A DNA stretch of 39,936 nt from a virus: the IMG/VR virus record IMGVR_UViG_3300020182_000074, positions 1-39,936 of that record; one strand, given 5' to 3'. The notes below the pieces were generated by a model. The model was given only the letters and a program-made list of their open reading frames with translations. It was not told the DNA's origin and did no database searches. The position numbers and the translations under genes were made by a program. Shown here in pieces: positions 5,324 to 29,770 of the stretch (the stretch's first letter is position 1; each line of letters opens with the position of its first letter).

Positions 5324-7345
5324 TTACAGTTTTTCTTTAATACCTAGTGACTTAAGTCGCAATGACCATACTCTCTTAACATCTTCAACATCTTGTTTAG
5401 TTAGGTATGGATCACCGTTTTCATCATATTGCTCTGTAAAATCGTAAAGGTATTGATCTACAACATCTTTAAAAGGACGCTTTGCTTTCTTAGCTGAAAG
5501 GTACAGTCCTTGAATGTTTGCATCTATTTCAGAAGGTATTGTTAAGTATTTATACCCATTTTTAATATCTCCGGATCTAATTTTCTCTCTAAATTCTTTC
5601 TCCTTACTTGTGCCGAATATACCTTTAAATTGGGCATCTTTACCGAATGATTTACTTCTTTCATTTCCTCCTGCTTGTGTAAGGTGTTCGATTTCGTGCC
5701 TTAACACATCTGTTATTTGAGCTGATAATTCTTCAAAATCTCTAGGAAAATTGTACGGGTCTAGCACAAATTCTAATTCAACTTTAGGTTGAATCCAGGA
5801 ATCTGTAGAGTCAAAACCTCCTTTAGAAGCTCCTCCGTTTCTCATTATACTATCACAGCCCTTAACAAATATAGCTTTTAAGTCATAGTCAAATTCTACA
5901 TCTGATTCTTTTTGAAATTCTTTATCTATATCGTCCGGTAGTGATAGTATTACTATTGGGTAGGAGTCCTCTACTACTTTTTTCATTGCTATTTGAGCAG
6001 ATTCGGTTTTAACATCTCCAAAATGCCCCTCTTTGTAGTGGTTTATTTTTTTTGCTAAAGCATTCTTTACACCTTCTATACTCTTATTAGTTAGGTAGGT
6101 GGTAATTGCATCATACCTACCTTCTGTTATAGTTTTATTTTCTTTAATAGATTTATCTCCATCTAAATTCTTTAAACTATCTTCCCAATTGCGGAAAGTT
6201 ATGTTACCTAGAAGGTAAGCTTCTTTTTCTATTTCCATTAAGTACCCGTCTTCATTAGTGTTTGAAGTATCTATACGTCCTAACCTTCCTTCAATATTCT
6301 GCATATGGTGTATCATCTCGTGGGAAAAAGACCTAACGATATCCTTATCGTGTCTCCCTTCTACAAAGAGTACTATTTCTTTTAATGCAGGACTGTAGTA
6401 AGCTGTTCTACCGAAAAAATTACTTGCTTCTATTGGATCTTTTTTAATTTTTACCTCCGGCAACGGTAGTATATTCATTTTGCGTTCTAACATATACTCT
6501 AATAGCGAACTTATATAATCTTTTAATTCTAGTTTCTTCTCTGTGCTTTCATTAAGTTCTGGGTATCCAACTGTGATTGTATTTTTATTATATTTTATAG
6601 AAGCATTGTTGGGTATCAGTCTAGATAGGTACCTGTATAGGTTATCTGTGTCATTTTTCTTTTTACTTTCTACAGGGGTATTTTTAATAGCAGGTTCTTC
6701 AGGTGCGAAGTATTCATCTATAATTCCTCCTAGATTTGAGGTTAAAATTTCTGCTACTATTTTATCCTTTAATCCTGTGAGAATATTTAGTATCTCTTCT
6801 CTAGATAAGTCTTCAGGAAAAAAATCTAAAACCGTATCTAAATTACCTGAAAGTATATTATTCCTAAAATCTGTTGCTCTAATTGTTGATCCGGGTTTTG
6901 CTGCTAATGCTAATCCTTTCACATTTGGAGCGTTTTTATAGGTAGTAACTCTTCTCAAATCTACAAAATCTTTTTCTCCTCTTATACCTGTTACTGATGC
7001 AAATTTTTGTTCAGGGTTAGCTTGTGCATAGTCCTTAGCTGCGAACATTGGATTACTCCCTCCGTCTCTTATCTCAACATTACCTAAGTACTTAGCATAA
7101 ATATTCCATATATACATCGATTCATCTTTGGATATACCGTTTCTCTCACCTGCTCCTACAAAAACTATAACTTTATCTATATCCGGTTTTTCACCGTTAC
7201 TGCCACCTAGAAGTGAAGCACCAGTTTCTTTATAATTGTCTTTATTATATAGTGAACCGTTATATGTTCCGTCTAATAGTGATTTTACTACGTTGTAATG
7301 TCCTCTATGTGGAGGTTTATATGCGCCTGGATATAATGCTATCAT
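5324..7345 (-). CDS. Adenylyltransferase (HxGH) fused to two HExxH metalloprotease-like domains
   Basis: This 673-residue protein has three parts. Residues 1 to about 200 form a nucleotidyltransferase of the NMNAT/cytidylyltransferase fold: GAYKPPHRGH with H13-R-G-H16, and the second signature GSTIRATDFR near 152-161, equivalent to ISSTxIR. Residues about 300-390 contain SFSHEMIHHMQNIEG (HExxH at 342-346) with a downstream EKEAY. Residues about 520-640 contain DVLRHEIEHLTQAGG (HExxH at 550-554) with a downstream IPSEIDANIQG. The HExxH sites are zinc-metallopeptidase signatures, each with a plausible third ligand. The first part may act in NAD synthesis or nucleotide transfer. The others may process virion or host proteins. 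Fused versions of the first two parts occur in marine phages, and the second protease-like part is less familiar to me. Confidence 0.75.
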   Translation of the reverse strand: MIALYPGAYKPPHRGHYNVVKSLLDGTYNGSLYNKDNYKETGASLLGGSNGEKPDIDKVIVFVGAGERNGISKDESMYIWNIYAKYLGNVEIRDGGSNPMFAAKDYAQANPEQKFASVTGIRGEKDFVDLRRVTTYKNAPNVKGLALAAKPGSTIRATDFRNNILSGNLDTVLDFFPEDLSREEILNILTGLKDKIVAEILTSNLGGIIDEYFAPEEPAIKNTPVESKKKNDTDNLYRYLSRLIPNNASIKYNKNTITVGYPELNESTEKKLELKDYISSLLEYMLERKMNILPLPEVKIKKDPIEASNFFGRTAYYSPALKEIVLFVEGRHDKDIVRSFSHEMIHHMQNIEGRLGRIDTSNTNEDGYLMEIEKEAYLLGNITFRNWEDSLKNLDGDKSIKENKTITEGRYDAITTYLTNKSIEGVKNALAKKINHYKEGHFGDVKTESAQIAMKKVVEDSYPIVILSLPDDIDKEFQKESDVEFDYDLKAIFVKGCDSIMRNGGASKGGFDSTDSWIQPKVELEFVLDPYNFPRDFEELSAQITDVLRHEIEHLTQAGGNERSKSFGKDAQFKGIFGTSKEKEFREKIRSGDIKNGYKYLTIPSEIDANIQGLYLSAKKAKRPFKDVVDQYLYDFTEQYDENGDPYLTKQDVEDVKRVWSLRLKSLGIKEKL

Positions 7346-7412: not shown

Positions 7413-8354
7413 TCATGCTAAAAATGTTTGTACTTTTTGATCTATTTCTCCTACTGAGGAGTGTTTTAATTTTTCTTGGAATGTTGGGTTATATATCATA
7501 TCTACTATATTATCTAGTACCTGATCTCCTTTTTCTTTCCTTTTAATACTGCTCTCTCTATATTTTTTAACAGCAGCAGCAAGTTTATCTTGCCCTGGGC
7601 CGGTTCCGTTTTTTCTGTAAGCTTTGAGAAAGGTATTTTTAATTGCTTTATCTTCTGATCTATTATTTTTATCCCAACTTATACTTCCGGCATCTTTTAT
7701 AAACTGCTGTTCTTCTTCAGGTGTCATTTCTACTGGTACAAAGAATGAAGAACCGCCGGTGTTATTATCTTGATTAAATTTATCTAAATAATCTTTTACT
7801 CCATTCAAACCGTTTTTAGCAGCTTTGTCAAATCCTTCAACTTCTTTTTGGTACTTACCGCCTCTATCACTAACAAATATAGATAGATTACCTTTTAATT
7901 GCTTGTTAAAATCTTCTATTTTAGTATATACATTTCTCCAGGTAGCGAATACAGAATCACCAGGGATATTTCTTTCCCTAGCCATAAAGTTAGAAACATA
8001 TGAGATCATGGGGTGAGTATATACCATAACCATATATACCTTGTATCCTGAGGCAAGTATTTTATCTAGGTTTTTTTGAAATCCTGCTCCTGATGCTGTT
8101 GTGTCCCAAACAAAGCTAGTTTTTTCTTCTACTGCTGCCATTGCGTCTTTGGACGTTTGGTTGGCTGCTGGTCCTAGTTTGTTGTAATACTGGTGGGTTT
8201 TGTCTTCTATATACTTGTCTGGGTTGAATTGAACTAGACTGTCCAAGCCTAACTGGTTGAGTAGATACGTTTTCCCTGATCCTGCTCCTCCTGCCATTAT
8301 CACTGCTTTGGGTGCGGACCTGTCTTCTAGTATTAGTGTTGATAGTTTTATCAT
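7413..8354 (-). CDS. Zeta-toxin-like P-loop kinase with N-terminal tag
   Basis: The 313 residues begin MIKLSTLILEDRSAPK, the N-terminal motif shared by many genes here (L-I-L-E at 7-10). A P-loop follows at once: AGGAGSGKTY, with G22, G27, K28 and T29. WDTT at residue 83-86 and HPMISYVSNFMARERNIPG near 114-132 match the zeta-toxin / polynucleotide-kinase-like family, whose members phosphorylate small molecules such as UDP-N-acetylglucosamine, or nucleic acid ends. The C-terminal 100 residues are helical and charged. The tag suggests the start at 8354 is correct even though the first 239 nt overlap the end of the lipoprotein gene in another frame. Substrate unknown. A virion-delivered kinase is inference. 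Confidence 0.75.
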   Translation of the reverse strand: MIKLSTLILEDRSAPKAVIMAGGAGSGKTYLLNQLGLDSLVQFNPDKYIEDKTHQYYNKLGPAANQTSKDAMAAVEEKTSFVWDTTASGAGFQKNLDKILASGYKVYMVMVYTHPMISYVSNFMARERNIPGDSVFATWRNVYTKIEDFNKQLKGNLSIFVSDRGGKYQKEVEGFDKAAKNGLNGVKDYLDKFNQDNNTGGSSFFVPVEMTPEEEQQFIKDAGSISWDKNNRSEDKAIKNTFLKAYRKNGTGPGQDKLAAAVKKYRESSIKRKEKGDQVLDNIVDMIYNPTFQEKLKHSSVGEIDQKVQTFLA

Positions 8355-8973
8355 TTCTCGTGTTATTTATTCTTCGGTTCTTTACTTCTACTTTAATTAA
8401 ATCTGCAATGTCGTCTACTGTTTGAGTTCTTTCTATATTTCGGCTTACTACTCTACCTGAAATATTACTGTTTATGCCTCTTCTGCCATAAGTATTTGTT
8501 GTATTCCATGCTCTATTATAATTAGTATAATAGTTCCAATTGTTCCACCCATAATTGTTCCAACCATAGTTATTCCAGGCATACCCCCAATTGTTATACC
8601 CCCATCTATCATATCCAAATGGTGACCATCTATGAGGTGTAAATCCCCAAACCCAATCATTCCACATTTGATCTCTGTTCCAGTAAGAACCATAACCCCA
8701 ATATGGGTTATAACGATTATACCTGTTACCTAAAATACGATTATTCCAATCAAATGAAATAGGTTGACTTAAGGCATATTGGGCAAAATCAAATCTGAAG
8801 TTAATATCTGTTCTAAGTAAACGTTGTAATTCAAATTCATTATTTATTACTACTATTTCTGCATCTGATCCTTCTATGCTGTATATTGGATCGTGGCCCG
8901 TTGTACTTACATGCCATGTTGATGAACATCCTGCTAATAATAATACTAGTAATAATAATAATGATTTCTTCAT
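8116..8973 (-). CDS. Lipoprotein with Asn/Trp/Tyr/Gly-rich repeats
   Basis: The 285 residues start with a clear lipoprotein signal peptide (MKKSLLLLLVLLLAGCSS, lipobox LAGC with Cys16). The mature part has a small folded region (to about residue 75), then a low-complexity aromatic region (about 85-160) with repeats around NNYGWNN and NNWGYAW. The tail (about 195-285) is rich in Arg, Asn, Gln and Ser. The protein should be anchored in a host envelope membrane. Phage lipoproteins commonly act in superinfection exclusion, which is inference here. The last 79 codons overlap the kinase gene in a different frame, so that tail may be a late extension by stop loss. The gene starts 3 nt after the nuclease gene ends. 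Confidence 0.75.
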   Translation of the reverse strand: MKKSLLLLLVLLLAGCSSTWHVSTTGHDPIYSIEGSDAEIVVINNEFELQRLLRTDINFRFDFAQYALSQPISFDWNNRILGNRYNRYNPYWGYGSYWNRDQMWNDWVWGFTPHRWSPFGYDRWGYNNWGYAWNNYGWNNYGWNNWNYYTNYNRAWNTTNTYGRRGINSNISGRVVSRNIERTQTVDDIADLIKVEVKNRRINNTRNDKTINTNTRRQVRTQSSDNGRRSRIRENVSTQPVRLGQSSSIQPRQVYRRQNPPVLQQTRTSSQPNVQRRNGSSRRKN

Positions 8974-13372: not shown

Positions 13373-15094
13373 CTACCCTGTATACATAATATATGCTAGA
13401 GCAAAGTAAGGGGGTATATTACTATCAGCTGTGATTGTATGATTATGGCTTCCTGCTCCACCGGTATAGTACGATTCCCCATTTCTATAGTACACGTACT
13501 GATTATCATTATCAGTATCTCCACTACCTTTGTAAGGTCCTCCTGCTATCGGACCGTCTACTCCTGAGATTGCTTTGTGTTGTCCTACTCCTGGGTCATT
13601 TACCTCCATATAGTATGAATCCTTATAATCATGTTTATGAGAAGGTATTTGAGCTGTTGTTAGTGTTGTACCGCCTGTGTTTCCTCCATGACTGTGGTTT
13701 ATGTTACCTCCTGTAGATTGTGCACCGCTTCCCTGTATTGTTGTGGTTGGGGTACCTGTTGTGTTATTAGATCCTATTATAAATTTATTTCTTAGGTCCG
13801 GTGTTGTTATTGAGTTTTGGATTTGACCATTACAAAGAGCCCATCCTGATGGAAGTGATTGTACTGCTCCGGACCACATTATAATTCCTCCTTGTGGTAT
13901 TGGTGCTGCATTTACTTGTTTTGTTACTGCACCGTTTGACTCTCTAACTAAATAATTATAGTTAGTAGCACTAGCAGCGTTTGCGACACTATTTAAGGTA
14001 AGTGTATCATCAAATGTAGCGCTTTGACTCACATATAAAGATCCAGATACTTCTGCATCGTCTTCTATTGTTGCAGTTCCTGTTACATCTATAAAAGACC
14101 CTGATATACCGCCTGCTACTGTTAATTTATAAGTCCCACCTCCTACTGCATCTGTTCCTATACCTACCTGTCCGTTACCTTTAAACATTGCTACTAACTT
14201 GTTGTAAGTTACATCGAAGTTAGATGATGTAGGCGGTCCTGATAGTATTGAAAATGTCTGTGATGTAGTAGCAGTACCGAATGATTTAAGTCCTACTATT
14301 ACGTGACCTTCATCTGGTCCGTCTAGCATAAATCCTCTTTGATTACCTACATTGTTCATTTCCGTAGTAAAAGGGACTGTAGTACTGTTTGAATCAACAT
14401 ATGCAACTCTAAACTTTGCATTTATGTTATTGTTGTTACCGTCTACAACTAATGAACCGGATAGGTTATTATCACCGTGAGATGAATTAGCGTTTCTTGT
14501 ACTAATTGATCCGTCTCCGTTTATACTTAAAGCAGGAGTTGGTTTGTACCTGTTTACTATAAAATGTATACCTGCAGAAGAAGGGGTTGCTGTTGGTTCT
14601 GAATGATGGTTAGTAATATTAAAGCTACCGTCTCCTATTTCATTCAACTTAAAACTGCTACTATAGTTTACACTACCATCATCATACTGTAATGTTAGTT
14701 CTGGTTCAGATACTGCTGCGGTTCTTTGAATTTTAATTCCTCCGTCTCTTATTGATAATCTAGTATCTGATTCTGGTTGTGCATTTGCACCTAGTAGTAC
14801 TGTGTTGGTGCCTGCATTCCATCTAAAATCGTCATCTCCACCAAATGATCCAGCATTGTTATACTGTATTGTAGTTGAGTTACCTCCTACCGGTGGTGTT
14901 GATCCAGTATATGGATTCAATGGTATTTGTATTTGTGTTGCTGAAACCCCTAAGCCACTACTTCCTGTGTAGTGTAGGTTTAAGTACTCTTGGTTACTAC
15001 TAACTGATGCAGAATAAAAAAATGAGATAAAGTTATTATCTACCTCTGAGTATGTTAGTGCTGTTGTTTTGTCTGCTCTTAATACTATAGCCAT
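13373..15094 (-). CDS. Tail fibre with collar domain and HxH metal-binding tip
   Basis: The 573 residues begin MAIVLRADKTTALTYSEVDN, a typical fibre attachment end. A beta-rich shaft follows, with repeated GSL/GIGT turns (for example GQVGIGTDAVGG, SGSLYVSQSATF). The C-terminal third is a phage collar domain: PQGGIIMWSGAVQSLPSGWA, LCNGQ, TPDLRNKFIIGS, then Gly-rich segments with HSHGG, SHKHDY and SHNHTI, ending PPYFALAYIMYTG. The His-x-His pairs are like those that hold metal ions at the tips of T4 gp12 and gp37. This is the likely receptor-binding protein, reading a host surface glycan or protein. It is the last gene of the tail module. Confidence 0.85.
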   Translation of the reverse strand: MAIVLRADKTTALTYSEVDNNFISFFYSASVSSNQEYLNLHYTGSSGLGVSATQIQIPLNPYTGSTPPVGGNSTTIQYNNAGSFGGDDDFRWNAGTNTVLLGANAQPESDTRLSIRDGGIKIQRTAAVSEPELTLQYDDGSVNYSSSFKLNEIGDGSFNITNHHSEPTATPSSAGIHFIVNRYKPTPALSINGDGSISTRNANSSHGDNNLSGSLVVDGNNNNINAKFRVAYVDSNSTTVPFTTEMNNVGNQRGFMLDGPDEGHVIVGLKSFGTATTSQTFSILSGPPTSSNFDVTYNKLVAMFKGNGQVGIGTDAVGGGTYKLTVAGGISGSFIDVTGTATIEDDAEVSGSLYVSQSATFDDTLTLNSVANAASATNYNYLVRESNGAVTKQVNAAPIPQGGIIMWSGAVQSLPSGWALCNGQIQNSITTPDLRNKFIIGSNNTTGTPTTTIQGSGAQSTGGNINHSHGGNTGGTTLTTAQIPSHKHDYKDSYYMEVNDPGVGQHKAISGVDGPIAGGPYKGSGDTDNDNQYVYYRNGESYYTGGAGSHNHTITADSNIPPYFALAYIMYTG

Positions 15095-17884: not shown

Positions 17885-19693
17885 TTAAAGTGTACCGTCT
17901 TGTGATCCTGTTACGTATGTGTTAAATATAAACCCTTGGTTGTTAGTTTCTACTATAATCATCTCATCAGGAGCATCTTTTACTTTGTCTGGGTTTAGTA
18001 CAAATTTTGCATTAGAAAAAGGTATAACCCTATTACCTTGTAGGTCTATTAGCCTATCTCCTGATGCTAGTGAAATTATGTGGTTATCATTGGCACTATC
18101 ACCTGCGTCCAAATTGGCGTTTCCATCTGGTCCTCTACCTCTTAGTACCTGTACTGTTTTTACTTCTCTTATTACTGTCCCGCCGGCATCGTACTTTGTT
18201 GATACCGATATAACCTGCATATACTCTTTCTTTTCTGATAGTCCTGAACCGGATTCAAATGAAAGTAAATCTCCTGGTAGTATTTTCTGACCGTATCCTT
18301 CTACAAATATATCAAAAGTGTGTGTTGCACTCCCTTCTATTTCATAAGCATTTGGACCGGTATAAAACTCACCTACGTTTCCAACTCTTGTTGCTGGTTT
18401 ATCTCTGACGCCTGTAAACGATATCTCTTCAAATGCATTTTCATATTCTTTTCTTAATCCGTCTGAACCTGATATACCGTTTAGTAAGCTGTTTATATTT
18501 AACCATGATCTACCGTAAGCTTGTGTGTTATCAAAGGAACTAGATATAGAACCTTCAGTCAACCTCAATACATTAATAGTTTGGGCGTTTATAGCAGAAT
18601 CTATTCCACTGAATTCTTCTTTGGAAGTTTTAGATCCTCTATACCTTGCATTAGATACACCTATTGATGTATAGTTAGAATCTTGAACTTCAGCAGGTTC
18701 TGCGTAAGGTGTAAACTCTGGTGTTGCGTACCTTACTTCGGTATAGTTTGTTGTCTTGTCTAACGATGTTATCGTTCCTATAACTCTCTTAAGTGGTGTT
18801 GCGCCACTGTAGCTTATTCCTGGGCTATTAATTACTTTTATTCTGGTGTATATAAAATCACCATAGCTACCAGATGGAATTACTTGTCTATATGGGTTGA
18901 TAGTCTTTAAATAACTACCGTCAGTATATTCTACTAGTGCTAATGTATGTGTTTCGCCAGTACCGGAGAAGTTACTCTGTGGGTTAATCTCAAGTTTAAC
19001 TGTAAAGATGTGGTTATATTTCTCCTCGGGGTCTTTTAATATTACTGCACCGTTTACGTTACCTAGTGCGTTTACAATTGAGTCCCTAGTTACAGAGACC
19101 TCTACCTCTGTATCATTTCTAAATGGAGCTGGTGCTGTGGTAACAGTACTTTGGCCAGCGGTTGTGTTAAATACTGTATTATTTACAAATGAATTATGGT
19201 CCTCATCGTCAAATCCGATCCTGTTAACTTCTATTCCAACTGCTGCGTTAAAGTTAGAAGGGTGTACAGTACCTGCAGATCTATTTAACTTATACCTCTT
19301 AGTACCTGTTCGAATGTCTTCTGAATTACTTATCAATACGTTATAATCATTGTTATAAAAGTTTTCTGAAATAAATGGATCAAATACAACAGATGATGAT
19401 AAGCTTGAAGATATATCGGCAAATGTAAGATCTACATTATCAATAAAGAAGTAGTTGCCTTTTTTTGTTGCTGATATCTTTTTAAATGAGCTGAAATCTC
19501 CTGAGCTTGTTATTTTCATTTTTAAACTCTGGAGGTTCTGTAATGTAGGCACTACGTCAATACCTCCAATAGCATTTTCATGTACCGTAAGAGCTCGTAC
19601 TATGTGGTCTCCAGACAATGAATCTACATTATAGAATGCTCTAATTTCTCCATTATTTGGGTTTGTGTTTGCAAATTGTGTTATGTTAGCCAT
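17885..19693 (-). CDS. Virion structural protein, unknown
   Basis: The 602 residues begin MANITQFANTNPNNGEIRAF and are predicted to be mostly beta strand, with many Ser, Thr, Asn and Gly and few Cys. Segments such as SATHTFDIFVEGYGQKILPG and MQVISVSTKYDAGGTVIREV look like small beta-sandwich domains. It lies between the Hint-containing tail protein and the conserved 219-residue protein, all on one strand with short gaps, so a role in the tail or baseplate is very likely. I see no signal, membrane segment or catalytic motif. Confidence 0.7.
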   Translation of the reverse strand: MANITQFANTNPNNGEIRAFYNVDSLSGDHIVRALTVHENAIGGIDVVPTLQNLQSLKMKITSSGDFSSFKKISATKKGNYFFIDNVDLTFADISSSLSSSVVFDPFISENFYNNDYNVLISNSEDIRTGTKRYKLNRSAGTVHPSNFNAAVGIEVNRIGFDDEDHNSFVNNTVFNTTAGQSTVTTAPAPFRNDTEVEVSVTRDSIVNALGNVNGAVILKDPEEKYNHIFTVKLEINPQSNFSGTGETHTLALVEYTDGSYLKTINPYRQVIPSGSYGDFIYTRIKVINSPGISYSGATPLKRVIGTITSLDKTTNYTEVRYATPEFTPYAEPAEVQDSNYTSIGVSNARYRGSKTSKEEFSGIDSAINAQTINVLRLTEGSISSSFDNTQAYGRSWLNINSLLNGISGSDGLRKEYENAFEEISFTGVRDKPATRVGNVGEFYTGPNAYEIEGSATHTFDIFVEGYGQKILPGDLLSFESGSGLSEKKEYMQVISVSTKYDAGGTVIREVKTVQVLRGRGPDGNANLDAGDSANDNHIISLASGDRLIDLQGNRVIPFSNAKFVLNPDKVKDAPDEMIIVETNNQGFIFNTYVTGSQDGTL

Positions 19694-19717: not shown

Positions 19718-22700
19718 TTACTTTGTATTGTGAGATAGTATACCGTTGCTTATGTATGTACGACATTTTTCTACTGTAAGGCTTACTACCTTTTGTTTAG
19801 CCCCTTCTTTTATACTCCTTATTGTCTTTCCTGATGCTTTCTGTTCTACTTTTATATCTCTTAAGGCAATAAATTTACTTTCTTCTTCTATATACACTCT
19901 ATGTCCTGGTGTAGCTATAAGTACTGTTCCATCTTCAAATTCAATTTCTAGTGTTTCTTTTTCTGTTGATGAAATTTCTTTACGTATAACTATATCTTCA
20001 AACCACTCTAATGTATCTTCATGTTGAGTCCTAATAATATCTCCAACCTGCAACTCTTCAGCTAGTTTCTGTTTACCGGTTTTCATTAAAATATTGGTGT
20101 CCATACTAACACATAGTTCCTCCTGTTCCCAACCTTGAGCGTCAGAAAATATGTAAGTGTAACCGTCTTTGGTAATTTTCTTATTGAAATTTCCAAATCG
20201 TGAGTTATTTCCAGAATTTTCTGTAACGATGGCTGTAAAAACATTACTGTTCCCTTTTCCATAAGTACGATCTCCATTCACTGAATAGTATGGGTTGTAT
20301 GCTTGAAGCCAACCACCTGGTGCTAGTACTTGCATTTGGTAGTCCGTGTTACCTACGTATGATCCATTGTTTTTTGCTCTTACATAATAAGAACTTGTTT
20401 GTGCGTAACCGGTTACATTAATATAGGTTGGTGGTGTATTTCCGTTGGATGCGTTTTCCCAATCATAATCATATTCTGGTTTGTGTATTACGGATGCTGT
20501 GTAGTATGTTCCTACGTTACCGAAGGTATCAGTAAGGTATATGTACCCAAATACAGTATTACCGTAATCAACGCTAGAGAAATCTTGATTTATATAATCG
20601 TCGAATACAACACTTGATGTACCTGGTGTTGCTGATGATGCGCTTACGTATGTTGTGGTTGCTGTTCGTTGAGTTGCACCAGTATGATTACCATCAAAAA
20701 TTACTGAGACTGTACCGTTAAAGTCTACAGAGTGGTTTACATGGACTTTATATCTAGCAGTGTAATTTACAGACTGTGTTAGTAATAGTACACCGCTTTC
20801 TCGAATTGCAAAGTATCCTGAATATCCTGATGGTACTGCAACTTGTTTAGGTATTACTTTACCGTGGTGGTGGCTTGCTGTATGAACTGTTGATTCTGGT
20901 GATACGTTCCCTACTGCATCTCTTAGTTTAACACTTAGTGTAATATCGTCTCCATCTGATAAGGTAGAACAGTTTACACTTCCAAAAACGGATGATTGGG
21001 CAGCACCTAGTGCTGTATGAACTTCATTACTACTTTCATCTGATGCAGTTACTATCAGTGTAGTACCTACCTCGCAGTTATATACTCTGTAAGGAACGGA
21101 AGTAACGTTGTTGGATGTTATTGAAGAATTATACCATGCTGCTGAAGGGGCTAGAGGAGCAGTATTGTCTAATGTACTACAGTTCGTTATACTGAGTATA
21201 GTTCCATCTGTCTCTATCTCCATGGCAAATATTTCTACTGTATTACCTGTCTGTATTGCTGCGCTATAGAAATCACCTGATCCATTTCCTTGAAAAACTG
21301 AAGCACCGTTAATATCTAGATAAACTTTATCACTTCCGTTTGCTAAGGGTGGTGATGTGGTACCATTGTGGTAGAATTGATATGCATCTGATACAAACGT
21401 GAAAGCTCCACATGCAGCAATATTAGTATTATACTCTGTAGGGTTAAGGCTATCCATTATGTATAGTGACTCTAATACATCGGCACCACTTTGCTCTACT
21501 GAGGTTATATTAAATTTTGTTACCGGGTGAGATAGATATTTAAATGGATTATTAGCATTTAATTCTCCATCAGTTACAGTAATAGTAGAGCCTGATAGTT
21601 CTCCATTATATTTTGGAGATTCATCTGCTATATTTTTTGTAATGGAACCACTCATAGTTTTCACTTCTTCGTTATAAAACGTAGTAGCGTTATGTCTTAT
21701 GTTAGTTCTTGATTTGTTTTTTCCGCCGCTCCAATAAGGGATAGGGTATGAACTAGAATGTAACATGAAGGTTGCCATTACACTGTTTAAGGAAGATGGG
21801 TTATTTGCCACGTTTCCTGATGTTCCAAGCTGTTTTTGTGTTATTCTTAAAGTATCTCCGTCTTCAAATTTAGTTACAATTTCTAATTCAAATCTATACT
21901 TTTGCGCATTAGAACTTTCGATAGCATCTCTAAATGCTAATGCTTTTGTTGCTGCTGAACTACTTACTGGGATTACCACTCCTACATTGGAGCTGTAAAT
22001 GTCTCCGGTTGTTCCGGCATTTCTTACTTGGTAAGATTTTGTTAAAACAGGTAGAACGTTAGAAGTAAGGATTAAACATTGATTCGCAGCAGTTGGAGAG
22101 TAATCAGAATACTTAAATGTAAGTTCTGTAGTTGCTGCTGTAGGTTCTTCAATAATAAAACCATTTAGTGGAGTATAGAATTTATGTATTTCTTTTTTAA
22201 CTCCTACAGAACCTGATTGTTCAAATGCTGCTAGTATTACATCGTTTGGAAGTGGATCAAAAACGTGGTAATCGTTACTGTCATCAAATCTGGCGGACCA
22301 TCTACTGCTTGAGTTTTGTAGGTTATAAGCTATACACACTAGGTTTGGGTGATGTATATTAGCATCAAATGAAGTGTTTCCTGGGAATCTATTATCAATT
22401 GACTCAGAGCTGAACATTACATAGAAGTCTTGATGTATACTTGTGGTTGATCCTGTAGGATGTATTTCGTAGGGTGTACCTATAAACTTATCTTTTATAA
22501 CTGGATCTGTACCTATTATATTTCCTGGTTTGTATACTTCTTCTATATCATACTCAGTTCCATCTGGATGATAAAATACTGTACCCTGTGGTACTATTTC
22601 ACCGTAGTCTACTGATCCAGTAGCAAAATTTATATGAAAATTGATATCTGAATGTCCTCCTACCTTACCTGGGCTAAAATCAACAGGTAGTCCTTTTAAG

Positions 22701-25495
22701 TGTTTATTTTCCGGTAATACTTTATCATTGTATACTCCTGCTGAAGAACCTGTTACAAATGCTGTATCTATGCTTGCTGAGTAAGTATTGTCGGTTCCTT
22801 CAACAGAGGGTGATTTAATTTTAGATCTCTCTAACTTATGTGGCTGTATGATAATACCTACATCTAAATTTGCATTAGAAGGTACAAAATCTTTAATCAT
22901 CTTAAAGAGTACGTTATCGTAAAATTTAAAAATACGTACAAAATCTTTTAAGTTATAATTTAAATATTCTTTTCCTAGATCCGGAAAAATATTATACTTC
23001 AGTCTCTCTAACGTGTACTTATACTTATCATCAGGTGATTCATAAACATCCTTATTAAGGTCTCTAGGATCTCCAATCCAATCATCTAGACTAAATTGCG
23101 AAGATTGGAAGGATGGTCTTATTAGGTCTGTTTGTTCAGTAATGTATTTATTTAATACTGTAGAAGGTGAAAATCCTACTTCTACTTTTCTTGACTTATT
23201 TATGTTAGTAGACCTATTATCTCCTGCTGGTGCTTCTAATGTTATTGACCTATTTCCAGTTAGTACTTTGCCGTCTTCTGGGGTTGTGGATTTTACGGTT
23301 ACGCTCTTTATAGAAGATGTATAGGTATTTTCTGGTCCAAAATATATAGAGTCTTCCTGCTGCCCAAATGTTTTAATTGTTAAAAAATCTTTAGGTATAC
23401 CAAAGCAGTTTATAAGTGCTCTTAGTCCTCGTTCTGTACCTTTGGATTTAAGTAGAAGCGGTATATTATGGTAAAGTCTTTTGTATACACTTGCTTCATA
23501 ATCTTTTGTAGATATAGACTTATTGGTAGAAGTAATACCTCCTGTGAATGCGGTTGACATTCCTCCGGATATTTTATCTACTCCATAAAAGCTAGACCCT
23601 GTTACCCATGCTAGATTTCCTTGCGGACCTGCTATTGTTTGTTTTATTATTATCTCTCCAGCTATGGATGATGATTCATAAGTAAATTCTGCACCGTGAC
23701 CATTATTACTCTTTATAGCGTTACTAAATCGATACTCTCTTGTTGTTGCTGCTGTATACGTCGCTGGTTCCCCTATATAAAATAGTGTATTACCTGTTGT
23801 TGCATCAATTGTAGATGTTTTTGATATATCGTTAGTCGCTTGGTATGTAATTGTTGTTCCTTGTACAGAGGTTAAAGTAAGTGTCATATTACTGTCTGCA
23901 GTATTTGAATCACTTCTAAATCTTATAAAGCCACTTGCAAACTCTGCTTCAACAAAAGGACCTGCGTAGTGGTTTATTACTTCGCTTTGACTGCCGCTGT
24001 CGTATGTATCCTGTATAATGTAGCTGAACAAATCGTTTGCACCTTCAGTAGAATTGTATAGTTTTAAACCCATACTCTTTACTGCTTCTTGTACTAAGTC
24101 TTTAGATATACCATAATCTAACCTGTTGTCTGTATCATATTTATCTGTTAGAGCTTTAGTATATATCCATAAGTTATCGTAATGCTGACCGAGCATATGG
24201 GTGAATGTAATAGCTGCTTTATTATTATCATCGTCTGCTATATATCCTGGTAGAAATCCGGTTAACAGATCTAGGTTTCTTGCATCATAAGCAGATGCAG
24301 ATGATAACTGTTCGTTAAACCATGTTACCGATGATGTGTTGTTTATCTCTAAATTTATATAGGGTTTATCATCATTAGATTTAGGCCACGATTTAGATCC
24401 ACTTTCATAGTATAAGAACCTTTCATAGTGATCAAAATTATTTACTATTCCGTCTATTAGATTCTTTGTTGCTACTATACTTCCGCTTGCTGCTGTTGTA
24501 TTAGGATTGTTAATTCCCTGTTCTGCAAGTAAGTCACTCTCGTATGCTTCTAGTAAGCTTACTTTATATTTAAAGTTTCTGAGTCTTTCTTCAGCAGAAG
24601 AAAAGTGAATAAAGTTTTCGTATTCTCTATGGTCTATGCCGATGTTTGCACTCTTTTCATTTATGAGTGAAAATAATTCTTTATTAGAGTTACTAGACTC
24701 ATAGCTAAATAAATCGTTTAATTTAAAGTACTCTGTAGGTGTACTGTCTTGAGTCTCTAATTCTACGGAAAAGTTTGCTTGTCTTAGTTTTGGAGGCTGT
24801 CTTTCTTCTTCCTCTATATCCGGTATAACTAAAGTAGCTATTGAATCTGATATTTTTTCTACTAGTTGAACCTCACTCTTAATATCGTATTTATCAGGTA
24901 ATGGTTCATATAACCTCAGTGCAACTGTGTATTTATTATCTAGTTGGAATGTATCTATATTTGTTATTATCAGAAGATCATTATCCCCCATGTTAAGAGA
25001 AAGTTCTTCAAAGTAACTTTTACTCTGTATCTTTTCTTTTAGTTCATCTGTTTTGTTAATTAGGTCGTTTACCTTTATCTTATCAGAGTATAGTAGAACT
25101 TCTTTACGGTCTGTTGATATACTGTGTATATATAAATCTTGCTTACCGTTACCGATTGTAAATACATCGTTTAGAAAGTGAAATAGTACTTTTACTTTAG
25201 TACGTGCAAATCCTTGCTGTATGGCTAGTTCAGCAGGTTTTAATTCTATTTCTGTTGATTTTTGATCTGCTGTAGGTATACTTAGATTCGGGACCGGTAG
25301 TGAGTAGTTATACGAAGAGTACAGTCTATAGTTATTTACCGTATAAAAATGAGTTTCAATATAATGCTTATTAAAGTCAAACTCCTTATTAACTTTAAAA
25401 TTATCTATTAAGTTAAGATCTTTACTTGAGTATTGCTCTACATCAGGTAGGTTATTAGCAATAATATCTTGTGAAGTGTATGTTACTTTAGCCAT
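19718..25495 (-). CDS. Giant tail/baseplate protein ending in a Hint (intein-type) domain
   Basis: This is the largest gene in the window (1925 residues). The first 1000 or so residues resemble baseplate proteins of marine myophages in position and composition. About 1400-1780 is beta-rich, with Ig-like turns (DNTAPLAPSA, LRDAVGNVSP, LTDTFGNVGT) suggesting adhesion modules. Residues 1795-1923 form a Hint domain: Cys1795 in LCVSMDTNILM, the block-B signature ATPGHRV, and the closing block TYISNGILSHN, followed by Thr-Lys and the stop. All residues needed for N-S acyl shift, Asn cyclisation and a +1 nucleophile are present. The domain may remove itself from the mature tail protein or attach the end to another molecule. 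Confidence 0.8.
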   Translation of the reverse strand: MAKVTYTSQDIIANNLPDVEQYSSKDLNLIDNFKVNKEFDFNKHYIETHFYTVNNYRLYSSYNYSLPVPNLSIPTADQKSTEIELKPAELAIQQGFARTKVKVLFHFLNDVFTIGNGKQDLYIHSISTDRKEVLLYSDKIKVNDLINKTDELKEKIQSKSYFEELSLNMGDNDLLIITNIDTFQLDNKYTVALRLYEPLPDKYDIKSEVQLVEKISDSIATLVIPDIEEEERQPPKLRQANFSVELETQDSTPTEYFKLNDLFSYESSNSNKELFSLINEKSANIGIDHREYENFIHFSSAEERLRNFKYKVSLLEAYESDLLAEQGINNPNTTAASGSIVATKNLIDGIVNNFDHYERFLYYESGSKSWPKSNDDKPYINLEINNTSSVTWFNEQLSSASAYDARNLDLLTGFLPGYIADDDNNKAAITFTHMLGQHYDNLWIYTKALTDKYDTDNRLDYGISKDLVQEAVKSMGLKLYNSTEGANDLFSYIIQDTYDSGSQSEVINHYAGPFVEAEFASGFIRFRSDSNTADSNMTLTLTSVQGTTITYQATNDISKTSTIDATTGNTLFYIGEPATYTAATTREYRFSNAIKSNNGHGAEFTYESSSIAGEIIIKQTIAGPQGNLAWVTGSSFYGVDKISGGMSTAFTGGITSTNKSISTKDYEASVYKRLYHNIPLLLKSKGTERGLRALINCFGIPKDFLTIKTFGQQEDSIYFGPENTYTSSIKSVTVKSTTPEDGKVLTGNRSITLEAPAGDNRSTNINKSRKVEVGFSPSTVLNKYITEQTDLIRPSFQSSQFSLDDWIGDPRDLNKDVYESPDDKYKYTLERLKYNIFPDLGKEYLNYNLKDFVRIFKFYDNVLFKMIKDFVPSNANLDVGIIIQPHKLERSKIKSPSVEGTDNTYSASIDTAFVTGSSAGVYNDKVLPENKHLKGLPVDFSPGKVGGHSDINFHINFATGSVDYGEIVPQGTVFYHPDGTEYDIEEVYKPGNIIGTDPVIKDKFIGTPYEIHPTGSTTSIHQDFYVMFSSESIDNRFPGNTSFDANIHHPNLVCIAYNLQNSSSRWSARFDDSNDYHVFDPLPNDVILAAFEQSGSVGVKKEIHKFYTPLNGFIIEEPTAATTELTFKYSDYSPTAANQCLILTSNVLPVLTKSYQVRNAGTTGDIYSSNVGVVIPVSSSAATKALAFRDAIESSNAQKYRFELEIVTKFEDGDTLRITQKQLGTSGNVANNPSSLNSVMATFMLHSSSYPIPYWSGGKNKSRTNIRHNATTFYNEEVKTMSGSITKNIADESPKYNGELSGSTITVTDGELNANNPFKYLSHPVTKFNITSVEQSGADVLESLYIMDSLNPTEYNTNIAACGAFTFVSDAYQFYHNGTTSPPLANGSDKVYLDINGASVFQGNGSGDFYSAAIQTGNTVEIFAMEIETDGTILSITNCSTLDNTAPLAPSAAWYNSSITSNNVTSVPYRVYNCEVGTTLIVTASDESSNEVHTALGAAQSSVFGSVNCSTLSDGDDITLSVKLRDAVGNVSPESTVHTASHHHGKVIPKQVAVPSGYSGYFAIRESGVLLLTQSVNYTARYKVHVNHSVDFNGTVSVIFDGNHTGATQRTATTTYVSASSATPGTSSVVFDDYINQDFSSVDYGNTVFGYIYLTDTFGNVGTYYTASVIHKPEYDYDWENASNGNTPPTYINVTGYAQTSSYYVRAKNNGSYVGNTDYQMQVLAPGGWLQAYNPYYSVNGDRTYGKGNSNVFTAIVTENSGNNSRFGNFNKKITKDGYTYIFSDAQGWEQEELCVSMDTNILMKTGKQKLAEELQVGDIIRTQHEDTLEWFEDIVIRKEISSTEKETLEIEFEDGTVLIATPGHRVYIEEESKFIALRDIKVEQKASGKTIRSIKEGAKQKVVSLTVEKCRTYISNGILSHNTK

Positions 25496-27566: not shown

Positions 27567-29360
27567 TTATAATGTTGTTATTCTACCTTGAATATCATTG
27601 TCTGGGTATTTTATTTCAAATACCATAGGATCTAATGAAGGGAAAATAATATTATCTTTCATTGCTCCCGGTATATCGTAATCATACTCAGAATAGCTAC
27701 CTCCGGTTTTGGTTGTTATCTTAATATTCTGTACTGTTTGAACTCCTTTTATTCTATCTAGTAATGTGTAGACTGTTGATAGGTTTATCGGTTGATTAAT
27801 TAATCGATTTGCTGTTCTAAAATAATTTTTCAACGCTAAAGAGCAGTTAAATAGCACTTCTCTAGAATTGTAATTAGGTAGTGATATTATATCATAATCA
27901 ATACCTATGTTTATAATGTAAGCATCTTTAATATCAAGAGAATCTGTTAGCATCATATACGGTGCAAGGTAGCCTTTTAGGTTTTCTTTAAGTTGAGTTG
28001 AAGCTTCTGTTAGTTTATAGTTATTATCATATGCTAAAACATATAGACAAACATTAGTACTATCAATTTTATCGTAGCTTTTTGCATTACTTGTTGTAAC
28101 TATGTCTGGTGTTGTAACAAATGATTTAGCTATTGCTCCTAGATTAGGGGTCATAGTTAAAGCTCTAAATGCATAATCTTCTTTAGTTACTAACCTACCT
28201 TGTTCTGCAAAAGCTTTAAGAGAGTTCTGTCTTACTTCTTCTGCTGAATCTCCGTCTTTACCTCCGGTTGCAGGTTTTGGATTATTATAAGACAATGTAC
28301 CTGAGTAGGTATTATCTATTGCTGTAAATGTAGCATTTGTTGAAGTTGTAAGTGTATTTGCTTCTACATTTGATTCAACTCCTCCACCTCGTAAATACCT
28401 AACTGTTAGTACGGTGCTAGATGGTGCTATACCGTAACTATCTGTGTATAAGAAGTTGGAAGGATCATATGCATAATCTAGTCTACTTATACCTCCAGTG
28501 AATGGAGAACCAATATTTGTCGGATTAGGTACAACAGCTGTATTCTCTGTTGTTGGTGCTCCTGATCCGAATTGTACTTGCATTTGATTATTAGACTTTA
28601 ATCTTGTTACAAACCTTCTCGGTACATTAATTAATGTTAGCTGGTCTTCTGATCCTGTTATATTTGTAGTTTCGTATACTGTTTCTTGACCTAAATACGG
28701 TACCTCATACCATTTATCTCCATTACTGTCTATTATATCAAGTACACCTATTATATTAATGTCATTTATTTCAAAAGTAAAGTTCTGCTGGTGTCCTATT
28801 ACTTCTACTGTTTTAGTGGCTATCTCTCCTGCAGTTGCTTTTACTTTTTTTGTAAGTATAAATTCCGAAGGATTATCTCCCATTAATGAATAAATTGTAA
28901 CATCTGTAGGGTCATAGGAACTAGAAAATTTAAAATCAACTGGTTGATCAATTATAAATTTCTGTTTTCCGTATTCTAGTTGAACGTTACCGTTTACAGT
29001 TAAGGCTTGATCCCAGTCCGGTATATAAGATGCTCCTGTTGCTGCGACACGTTGTGATACTTCGATTTCTACTGAAGATGCTCTTGTTGCTCTTGGTCGA
29101 TACCCCATCATGTAAGCTAGTGTGTATAGGTTACTTGGATTTTGAGCGTACTGCAGATATGTTTCTTGAAGTTGTGAGTCTTGGTAGAAAGATAATATAT
29201 CTCCTACATAAGCAGACATTTCCATAAACATCATACCTGGTGACGTTGCAGAGAAGTCATTATAGCTGTCTGGGAAATAGTTTTTAGACATCTCTATTAA
29301 CTGCTGTCTTAAGCTGTTAAAGTCTTTGTCTGTATATTTTATACTAATATTTTGAGCCAT
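27567..29360 (-). CDS. Baseplate wedge protein, gp6/gpJ-like
   Basis: The 597 residues open with IKYTDKDFNSLRQQLIEMSK and SATSPGMMFMEMSAYVGDIL, the N-terminal signature of the gp6 / P2 gpJ / Mu gp47 baseplate family. The C-terminal half has the expected domain: SAEEVRQNSLKAFAEQGRLV, TKEDYAFRALTMTPNLGAIA, and a later part where a poly-strand unit (INIGIDYDII, LINQPINLSTVYTLLDRIKG) completes the wedge. In T4, gp6 dimers form the inner ring that ties the wedges together. It follows the gp25-like gene by 2 nt, the usual order in contractile tails. Confidence 0.9.
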   Translation of the reverse strand: MAQNISIKYTDKDFNSLRQQLIEMSKNYFPDSYNDFSATSPGMMFMEMSAYVGDILSFYQDSQLQETYLQYAQNPSNLYTLAYMMGYRPRATRASSVEIEVSQRVAATGASYIPDWDQALTVNGNVQLEYGKQKFIIDQPVDFKFSSSYDPTDVTIYSLMGDNPSEFILTKKVKATAGEIATKTVEVIGHQQNFTFEINDINIIGVLDIIDSNGDKWYEVPYLGQETVYETTNITGSEDQLTLINVPRRFVTRLKSNNQMQVQFGSGAPTTENTAVVPNPTNIGSPFTGGISRLDYAYDPSNFLYTDSYGIAPSSTVLTVRYLRGGGVESNVEANTLTTSTNATFTAIDNTYSGTLSYNNPKPATGGKDGDSAEEVRQNSLKAFAEQGRLVTKEDYAFRALTMTPNLGAIAKSFVTTPDIVTTSNAKSYDKIDSTNVCLYVLAYDNNYKLTEASTQLKENLKGYLAPYMMLTDSLDIKDAYIINIGIDYDIISLPNYNSREVLFNCSLALKNYFRTANRLINQPINLSTVYTLLDRIKGVQTVQNIKITTKTGGSYSEYDYDIPGAMKDNIIFPSLDPMVFEIKYPDNDIQGRITTL

Positions 29361-29362
29361 TT

Positions 29363-29770
29363 TTATACTATATTAATTAAGATTTCATCCTCTAAGTCTG
29401 TTCCTACTATGGCAAACTTTAAGCCAAACTCTATTGTGTTATATTCTGTTTTATTATTTAGAGATAAGTCTAAAATATTAAGTTCAGGGAAATAATTTAC
29501 TAATGCTTCTCTTATTAATATTTCGATGTCTTCTAAGTTTTCAACAGTAGCGTTTTCAAAAAGCATACTTCTAAGCCCTGAACCAAATGTAGGTCTAAGG
29601 TATCTTTCACCTTTCCCTGTTAGTAGGTAGTTTATCAAATTTGCTTTGATAGCATCAACAGATTGATATGTAGAGTTAAACACAGCATTACCTGAGAAAG
29701 GTATTGCTACACCTATTGCTTTTCTAGGTTGTAAATCTAACGGATTAATCTTTTTTGCGTCAAATGCCAT
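29363..29770 (-). CDS. Baseplate wedge protein, gp25-like
   Basis: The 135 residues match the gp25/GpW lysozyme-like wedge family: PFSGNAVFNSTYQSVDAIKA, NLINYLLTGKGERYLRPTFG, SGLRSMLFENAT, and a closing strand pattern ILDLSLNNK / IEFGLKFAIVG. The GERYLRPTFGSGLR stretch is the family hallmark. In T4 and related machines this protein nucleates sheath assembly on the baseplate. Length is typical. It lies directly before the gp6-like gene in the transcript. Confidence 0.9.
   Translation of the reverse strand: MAFDAKKINPLDLQPRKAIGVAIPFSGNAVFNSTYQSVDAIKANLINYLLTGKGERYLRPTFGSGLRSMLFENATVENLEDIEILIREALVNYFPELNILDLSLNNKTEYNTIEFGLKFAIVGTDLEDEILINIV

Follow-up and report, generated by a model that had tools for sequence, protein, structure and literature searches.

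Domains with the intein fold are usually viewed as selfish inserts or as processing domains of toxins and Hedgehog proteins. To our knowledge, BIL domains have been described on cellular secreted proteins and not on phage tail tips, and our literature search, conducted mostly outside subscription journals, found no report of terminal Hint or BIL domains on phage tail proteins. A-type BILs lack a +1 nucleophile and keep the terminal His-Asn; cleavage dominates in them, with some ligation by the freed amine (PMC4031507; PMC7664689). BIL2 of Tetrahymena is reported to splice by forming an isopeptide bond to the epsilon-amine of a lysine (PMC8616854). Tail spikes can also carry a C-terminal domain, peptidase S74, that detaches itself and aids folding (PMC7824862).

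In this work, we analyse a Hint domain that closes a 1925-residue protein of a marine virus of bacteria, known from a 39,936-bp virus record (hereafter the window, meaning this whole stretch of DNA). We place it among its relatives, define a lysine that follows the domain throughout its family, and weigh what this residue may do.

Results

A Hint domain ends a tail protein

The window carries a T4-like tail module on its minus strand (Table 1), in which two small genes lie between the gp6-like gene and that of the Hint carrier. Gene order alone suggests that the 1925-residue protein is a baseplate component; an AlphaFold2 model of its residues 1-930 reached a mean pLDDT of 57, and a Foldseek search with it gave no significant match.

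Table 1 Features of the window discussed in the text
Feature	Position	Strand	Basis or remark
1925-aa tail/baseplate protein, Hint carrier	19718..25495	-	ORF; third gene after the gp6-like gene
Residues 1-930	22706..25495	-	kept in all homologues with or without the Hint; tblastn, ORF comparison, alignment
Residues 1651-1794	20114..20545	-	fastest-evolving stretch, directly upstream of the Hint; dN/dS 0.37 (1651-1800 bin)
Hint domain, residues 1795-1923 (Hint numbering 1-129)	19727..20113	-	family profile, AlphaFold2, structure matches
Catalytic Cys1 (Cys1795)	20111..20113	-	invariant in 66/66 clusters
Block B T-P-G-H, residues 1862-1865 (His is Hint position 71)	19901..19912	-	His invariant in 66/66 clusters
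Thr119-Tyr120 near block F	19754..19759	-	invariant in 66/66 clusters
Block G His128-Asn129 (His1922-Asn1923)	19727..19732	-	invariant in 66/66 clusters
C-extein, two residues Thr1924-Lys1925	19721..19726	-	Lys (19721-19723) is the conserved element
Stop codon TAA of the 1925-aa protein	19718..19720	-	next gene starts at 19693
gp25-like gene	29363-29770	-	upstream of the 1925-aa protein gene
gp6-like baseplate wedge gene	27567-29360	-	upstream of the 1925-aa protein gene
Collar-domain fibre gene	13373-15094	-	last of further tail genes after the 1925-aa protein gene

General-purpose profiles see the domain weakly. Searched with the window protein, Pfam returned Hint (E = 1e-3) and Intein_splicing (2.5e-3), both under the gathering score, and NCBIfam returned intein_Nterm (2.9e-3) and intein_Cterm (0.024), with TIGR01443 at 14.9 bits against a cut-off of 15.6. 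The domain is nonetheless a member of the HINT superfamily, with the horseshoe beta fold predicted by its model together with Cys1 and the block-B His: a family profile and an AlphaFold2 model built from 73 relatives (pLDDT about 98 across the domain) settle its identity, the model matching mini-inteins and BILs at Z 20-21 (20.9 to 6y75 and 6frh). Coordinates, profile and model thus bear out the preliminary description, which had read a complete domain from the catalytic Cys through a T-x-x-H block B to the closing His-Asn, with Thr-Lys and the stop behind it, and had set its start exactly at the first base of the Cys1795 codon.

This ending is not an artefact of truncation or frameshift, as the same protein with the same end, at 89% identity, occurs on six other contigs, and diverged relatives end similarly. 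Nor does the C-extein continue in the next ORF, which starts independently 24 bp downstream and in a relative, too, is a gene of its own.

Elsewhere in the window, two long ORFs on the minus strand (7413-8354 and 8116-8973) overlap in different frames; one starts like a P-loop kinase (GGAGSGKT) and the other resembles a lipoprotein. A 673-residue ORF (5324-7345, minus strand) begins like a nucleotidyltransferase (weak match to CoaD/NadM) and contains two HExxH-like motifs, SHEMIHHMQ and RHEIEHLTQ.

Homologues with and without the domain

A search with the whole protein found 434 relatives in viral contigs, all sharing residues 1-930 and differing in the C-terminal part. As the preliminary description had proposed, comparing them separates proteins with the domain from those that lack it. 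In a tree built from this shared part, the Hint is characteristic of a single deep clade, which comprises 27 sequences and lost it once (L019), and a PT-HINT-like version was gained separately on two occasions (L035 and L039). Hintless L019 and L073 stop just past a BACON-like domain, the one that lies immediately before the Hint in related proteins, and a cultured hintless homologue, gp109 of Flavobacterium phage immuto, adjoins baseplate genes. The protein is thus viable without the Hint, as the hintless sister L019 indicates. One relative (L016:11663-12061, plus strand) carries a 133-residue C-extein containing a KIICNELYRQGYLPEEIWNADEQWG-type domain; this C-extein may be either ancestral or secondary.

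Measured against the nearest relative (L001, protein 89% identical), the Hint has the lowest dN/dS of the protein, 0.036 (23 synonymous and 4 nonsynonymous changes), whereas the bin just before it has the highest. The catalytic residues stay invariant although members of the 73-row alignment drop to 21% identity with the window Hint.

The same domain on unrelated tail proteins

Searches with a Hint profile located this module at the C-terminal end of lambda-J-like fibres in Sphingomonas-type phages and prophages (phrog_5616, phrog_31) and of a further tail protein (phrog_376), as well as within proteins of phrog_358. The N-exteins of the family fall into several families without detectable similarity, often with a Gly-rich linker before the Hint, and C-extein length is bimodal, with 2-15 residues in most clusters and 63-1545 in the others. 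Cultured Sphingomonas and Stakelama strains, among them Stakelama pacifica DSM 25059 and Sphingomonas naasensis KIS18-15, carry prophage genes for tail proteins with a terminal Hint, and a J-type protein with the domain lies on a human-gut phage contig. A gene-transfer-agent origin of the Sphingomonas members is unlikely, the domain being confined to 4 of the 296 genomes sampled from the order.

In phrog_358, the Hint sits at the junction of two halves, which are fused around it in L174 and encoded by separate ORFs, with the Hint on either one, in L101, L105, L108, L172 and L180; the phrog_358 protein of L181 has two Hints. We considered this arrangement as an argument for a polyprotein cutter and set it aside, as the family profile runs unbroken across the junction and so does not separate cutting from splicing. 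A GPGDGVSDSIPATI..GEFVIPARIV motif region is common to the long C-exteins of L109, L150, L196, L200 and L202; this phage structural domain recurs after the Hint.

One lysine follows the domain

For a census of the residues around the splice site, we grouped 129 unique Hints into 67 clusters at 65% identity. Cys1, His71, Thr119, Tyr120, His128 and Asn129 are invariant in 66 of these, that is, in all but L137, and the first residue of block B is Ser or Thr. The +1 residue varies freely (I, K, L, V, N, A, T, G or M across clusters), yet a lysine stands at +1 (19 clusters) or +2 (47 clusters) in 66 of the 67; the same holds for 127 of the 128 unique sequences that are not truncated, and arginine never takes its place. 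Counted by position, lysine occupies +1 in 19/66 and +2 in 48/66. The exception is again L137 (HN|Thr-Gly), which resembles an ordinary intein. Further along, from +3 to +12, only 7 of 441 residues are lysine. Exactly one lysine is found in 44 of 45 short C-exteins and two in the remaining one; outside the conserved position, these short C-exteins hold a single lysine, against 8.0 expected from their own N-exteins. On the Hint tree, few branches of which are well supported, the lysine moves between +1 and +2 at least five times and is never lost.

The search patterns mostly left out the +1 and +2 positions; the one that included them contributed six loci. Because the clusters are partly interdependent, the very low probabilities of the lysine pattern arising by chance are descriptive only. 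We also considered the lysine as a by-product of the ribosome-binding site of the next gene and rejected this, as C-exteins of 63-1545 residues keep it too. The conserved lysine contradicts the earlier statement that nothing is left to join after the domain.

Control Hints behave differently. Among Pseudomonadota PT-HINTs and inteins, C-exteins begin AC, QS, CG, GG or CH, with a lysine in none of the 12 that were readable, and two phage inteins (in a terminase and at the far end of a split RecA-like gene) begin HN|Thr-Glu and HN|Thr-Gly, again without lysine. A scan with PT-HINT-like phage Hints returned three sorts: +1 Cys inteins, structural proteins with Gly-rich C-exteins, and a class with lysine at +1. 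Inteins of phage enzymes read HN|Cys and lack the lysine. In the Lys+1 class, three proteins end His-Asn-Lys-stop (L378:1082-2995, L381:1082-2995 and L372:1070-3025, plus strand), and a phrog_358-type protein (L351:2-4279, plus strand) carries four tandem Hints with exactly one lysine between them (HN-K-CFVKGT), so that its repeating unit is a Hint plus a lysine. Upstream, each of the first three contains another intein-like stretch, a degenerate one (LMHNPFGAGRY or VLHNPYGVGRW).

Three terminal Hints of more distant phage proteins have no lysine at +1 or +2: HN-APVDQKH in phage NCTB, HN-VEEDLKQKE in L328 and HN-IQDELVEKD in L329. The NCTB protein (LT598654.1, 96419-100333; also L342) is labelled 'large intein domain protein' and has its terminal Hint behind a Gly-rich linker. 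L326 and L328 share a genome with L014, as do L327 and L329 with L010. In such a genome, three Hints occur together: a terminal one on the tail protein, an intein-like one (HN-Thr) in a 3165-residue ORF and, in an adjacent 235-residue ORF, a terminal Hint without lysine at +1 or +2.

Comparison with described Hint domains

Among PDB sequences, the family profile best matches BIL2 of Tetrahymena thermophila (E = 1e-15), which comes from the BUBL1 polyubiquitin locus and is also the joint top structural match (6Y75, 6TMM; Z 20.9, rmsd 1.6, 133 aligned). BIL2 lacks a +1 nucleophile, and in the window family none is conserved. However, it is eukaryotic, zinc-activated and not at a protein C-terminus, and its acceptor lysine is reported inside the neighbouring ubl5, whereas the conserved lysine of the window family is at +1 or +2. 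A BUBL-type domain follows a ubiquitin-like N-extein ending Gly-Gly and has an acceptor lysine in the C-extein; here, the N-extein is the putative baseplate protein, ending Glu-Glu-Leu, and the lysine, invariant at +1/+2, is placed unlike that of BIL2.

The second PDB match, CthBIL4 of Clostridium thermocellum (2LWY, E = 2e-14), exemplifies the A-type BILs, with which the window Hint shares Cys1, the block-B His, the C-terminal His-Asn, mini size, the lack of a conserved +1 nucleophile and variable flanks (PMC4031507). His-Asn is invariant throughout the family, no Cys, Ser or Thr is conserved at +1 (the window itself has Thr), and the setting is a variable region of a non-enzymatic protein, whose C-terminal half varies and evolves fastest directly upstream of the domain. 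In contrast to the window family, control PT-HINT and BIL-type domains have no conserved lysine at +1/+2. The lysine rule sets the family apart as a variant within the A-type kind, of which our search, mostly outside subscription journals, found no earlier report.

Other classes agree less well. Class 1 mini-inteins (Ssp DnaB M86, gp41-1) have the same fold (Z 19-21), Cys1 and His-Asn, but need Cys, Ser or Thr at +1 and rejoin functional exteins; in the window family, +1 is Thr in 3 of 67 clusters and Cys or Ser in none, the window C-extein is only Thr-Lys, and homologues without a Hint stop at the point of insertion or close to it. B-type BILs lack block G, whose His-Asn is present and invariant here. 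The preliminary description had likened the domain to those of Hedgehog proteins, a label that fails: Hedgehog Hog (1AT0) shares the fold (Z 19.6), the C-terminal position and Cys1, but lacks the His-Asn of block G and has a sterol-recognition region, whereas the window protein ends His-Asn-Thr-Lys-stop, and the sequence match (E about 1e-3) is poorer than those to A-type BILs. The PT-HINT profile (PF07591) matches the BIL-type Hint of L035 and its close copy in L039 above the gathering score; searched against the window protein it gave no match, and no toxin domain follows, as nothing lies downstream of the Hint.

Discussion

On sequence and modelling evidence, it is an evenly balanced judgement that the window Hint is an active, self-removing C-terminal module of the A-type BIL kind in which lysine probably replaces the usual Cys, Ser or Thr. 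The parts of this reading differ in strength. That the domain detaches itself from the tail protein is very probable; that the C-extein lysine is the chemical acceptor is a proposal we make tentatively, a little short of even confidence. In the proposed course of events, Cys1 would take the tail protein as a thioester through an N-to-S shift, and the epsilon-amine of the invariant lysine would attack this thioester, a step we infer because a Cys, Ser or Thr nucleophile at +1 is absent as a conserved feature. Cyclisation of Asn129 would then free the Hint, leaving a mature tail protein that ends near residue 1794 plus a lysine-containing scar (Thr-Lys), attached through an isopeptide bond or, should the freed alpha-amine be the attacking group, through a normal peptide bond. 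The Hint would most likely be a temporary tag for synthesis or tail assembly, gone from the finished fibre tip. Such a role would be comparable to that of S74 intramolecular chaperones, from which the Hint differs in fold, chemistry (Ser-Lys in S74) and ancestry. Of the earlier proposal of an autoprocessing tag, the C-terminal tag itself is supported by the invariant catalytic set, the strongest selection in the protein and the recurrence on unrelated tail proteins; the idea that it leaves no useful remainder is not.

The lysine as acceptor is favoured by the reported isopeptide splicing of BIL2, by the His-Asn-Lys-stop and tandem Hint-Lys proteins, and by the controls, which have no lysine at this site. 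The exclusion of arginine, the single copy and the tolerance of either position would fit a flexible amine nucleophile better than charge or packing, short of proof. Against this stand the location of the BIL2 acceptor in a ubiquitin-like domain, the A-type BILs that cleave, and splice weakly, without a lysine, those more distant terminal Hints that lack it at +1/+2, and the structural phage Hints with Gly-rich C-exteins; moreover, Thr+1 of the window could act as a canonical nucleophile, and an invariant lysine could be structural. A structural lysine would leave the domain an ordinary A-type BIL that cuts at both ends, by thioester hydrolysis and Asn cyclisation, with some alpha-amine ligation and a lysine kept for charge or packing. 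We consider this unlikely, though a serious contender: it fits the described mechanism, with cleavage dominant and the +1 nucleophile absent (PMC4031507; PMC7664689), as well as the second rank of CthBIL4 among PDB matches, but it leaves unexplained why the residue is always lysine and never arginine, exactly one, and at either +1 or +2, when PT-HINT and intein controls do not keep it.

It is improbable that the domain instead works as a conjugation device, its thioester passing the tip of the tail protein to another molecule, be it a neighbouring fibre subunit, a different tail protein or an amine on the host surface; the lysine would then be a decoy or would receive the tip on an adjacent chain. 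BIL2 reportedly transfers a ubiquitin-like protein to other proteins (PMC8616854), the Hints sit on tail-tip proteins, often behind flexible Gly-rich linkers, and some phages have two terminal-Hint proteins; yet no partner protein was found, a 167,696-bp relative has a single Hint, and the conservation of His-Asn argues that release at the C-terminal end matters too. Thr is allowed at +1 of a canonical class 1 intein, and the TIGR01443 score falls just under its cut-off, so the domain could in principle be such an intein stuck at the C-terminus, splicing its N-extein to Thr-Lys. We hold this to be very improbable, as nearly all relatives have Val, Ile, Leu, Ala, Gly, Asn or Lys there, the nearest of the same architecture having Gly or Asn. 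A decaying or selfish relic, without a role and kept because it is harmless at the C-terminus, is hardly credible: intein-like domains are often selfish and presence is patchy at large scale, but the lowest dN/dS of the protein beside the highest just upstream, the invariant catalytic residues, the deep clade of 27 with its single loss and the lack of a homing endonuclease all speak against it.

Returning to the lysine-accepting tag, a wider reading is that a large phage-borne class of Hints splices through a lysine side chain, the tag leaving an isopeptide-bound lysine and possibly joining tail subunits; judged from sequences, this is conceivable but rather doubtful. What recurs is a distinct Hint clade, which closes unrelated tail-tip proteins of phages and keeps a lysine that no canonical mechanism needs. 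If the proposal is right, it would add another route by which an intein-fold domain resolves its thioester, written into the C-extein as a single invariant lysine at +1 or +2, and a lysine nucleophile would amount to a natural, enzyme-free isopeptide ligation in many phages that may serve as a ligation tool. Many receptor-contacting tail proteins would then, in their mature form, end earlier than annotated, which would bear on work on their structure and on host range.
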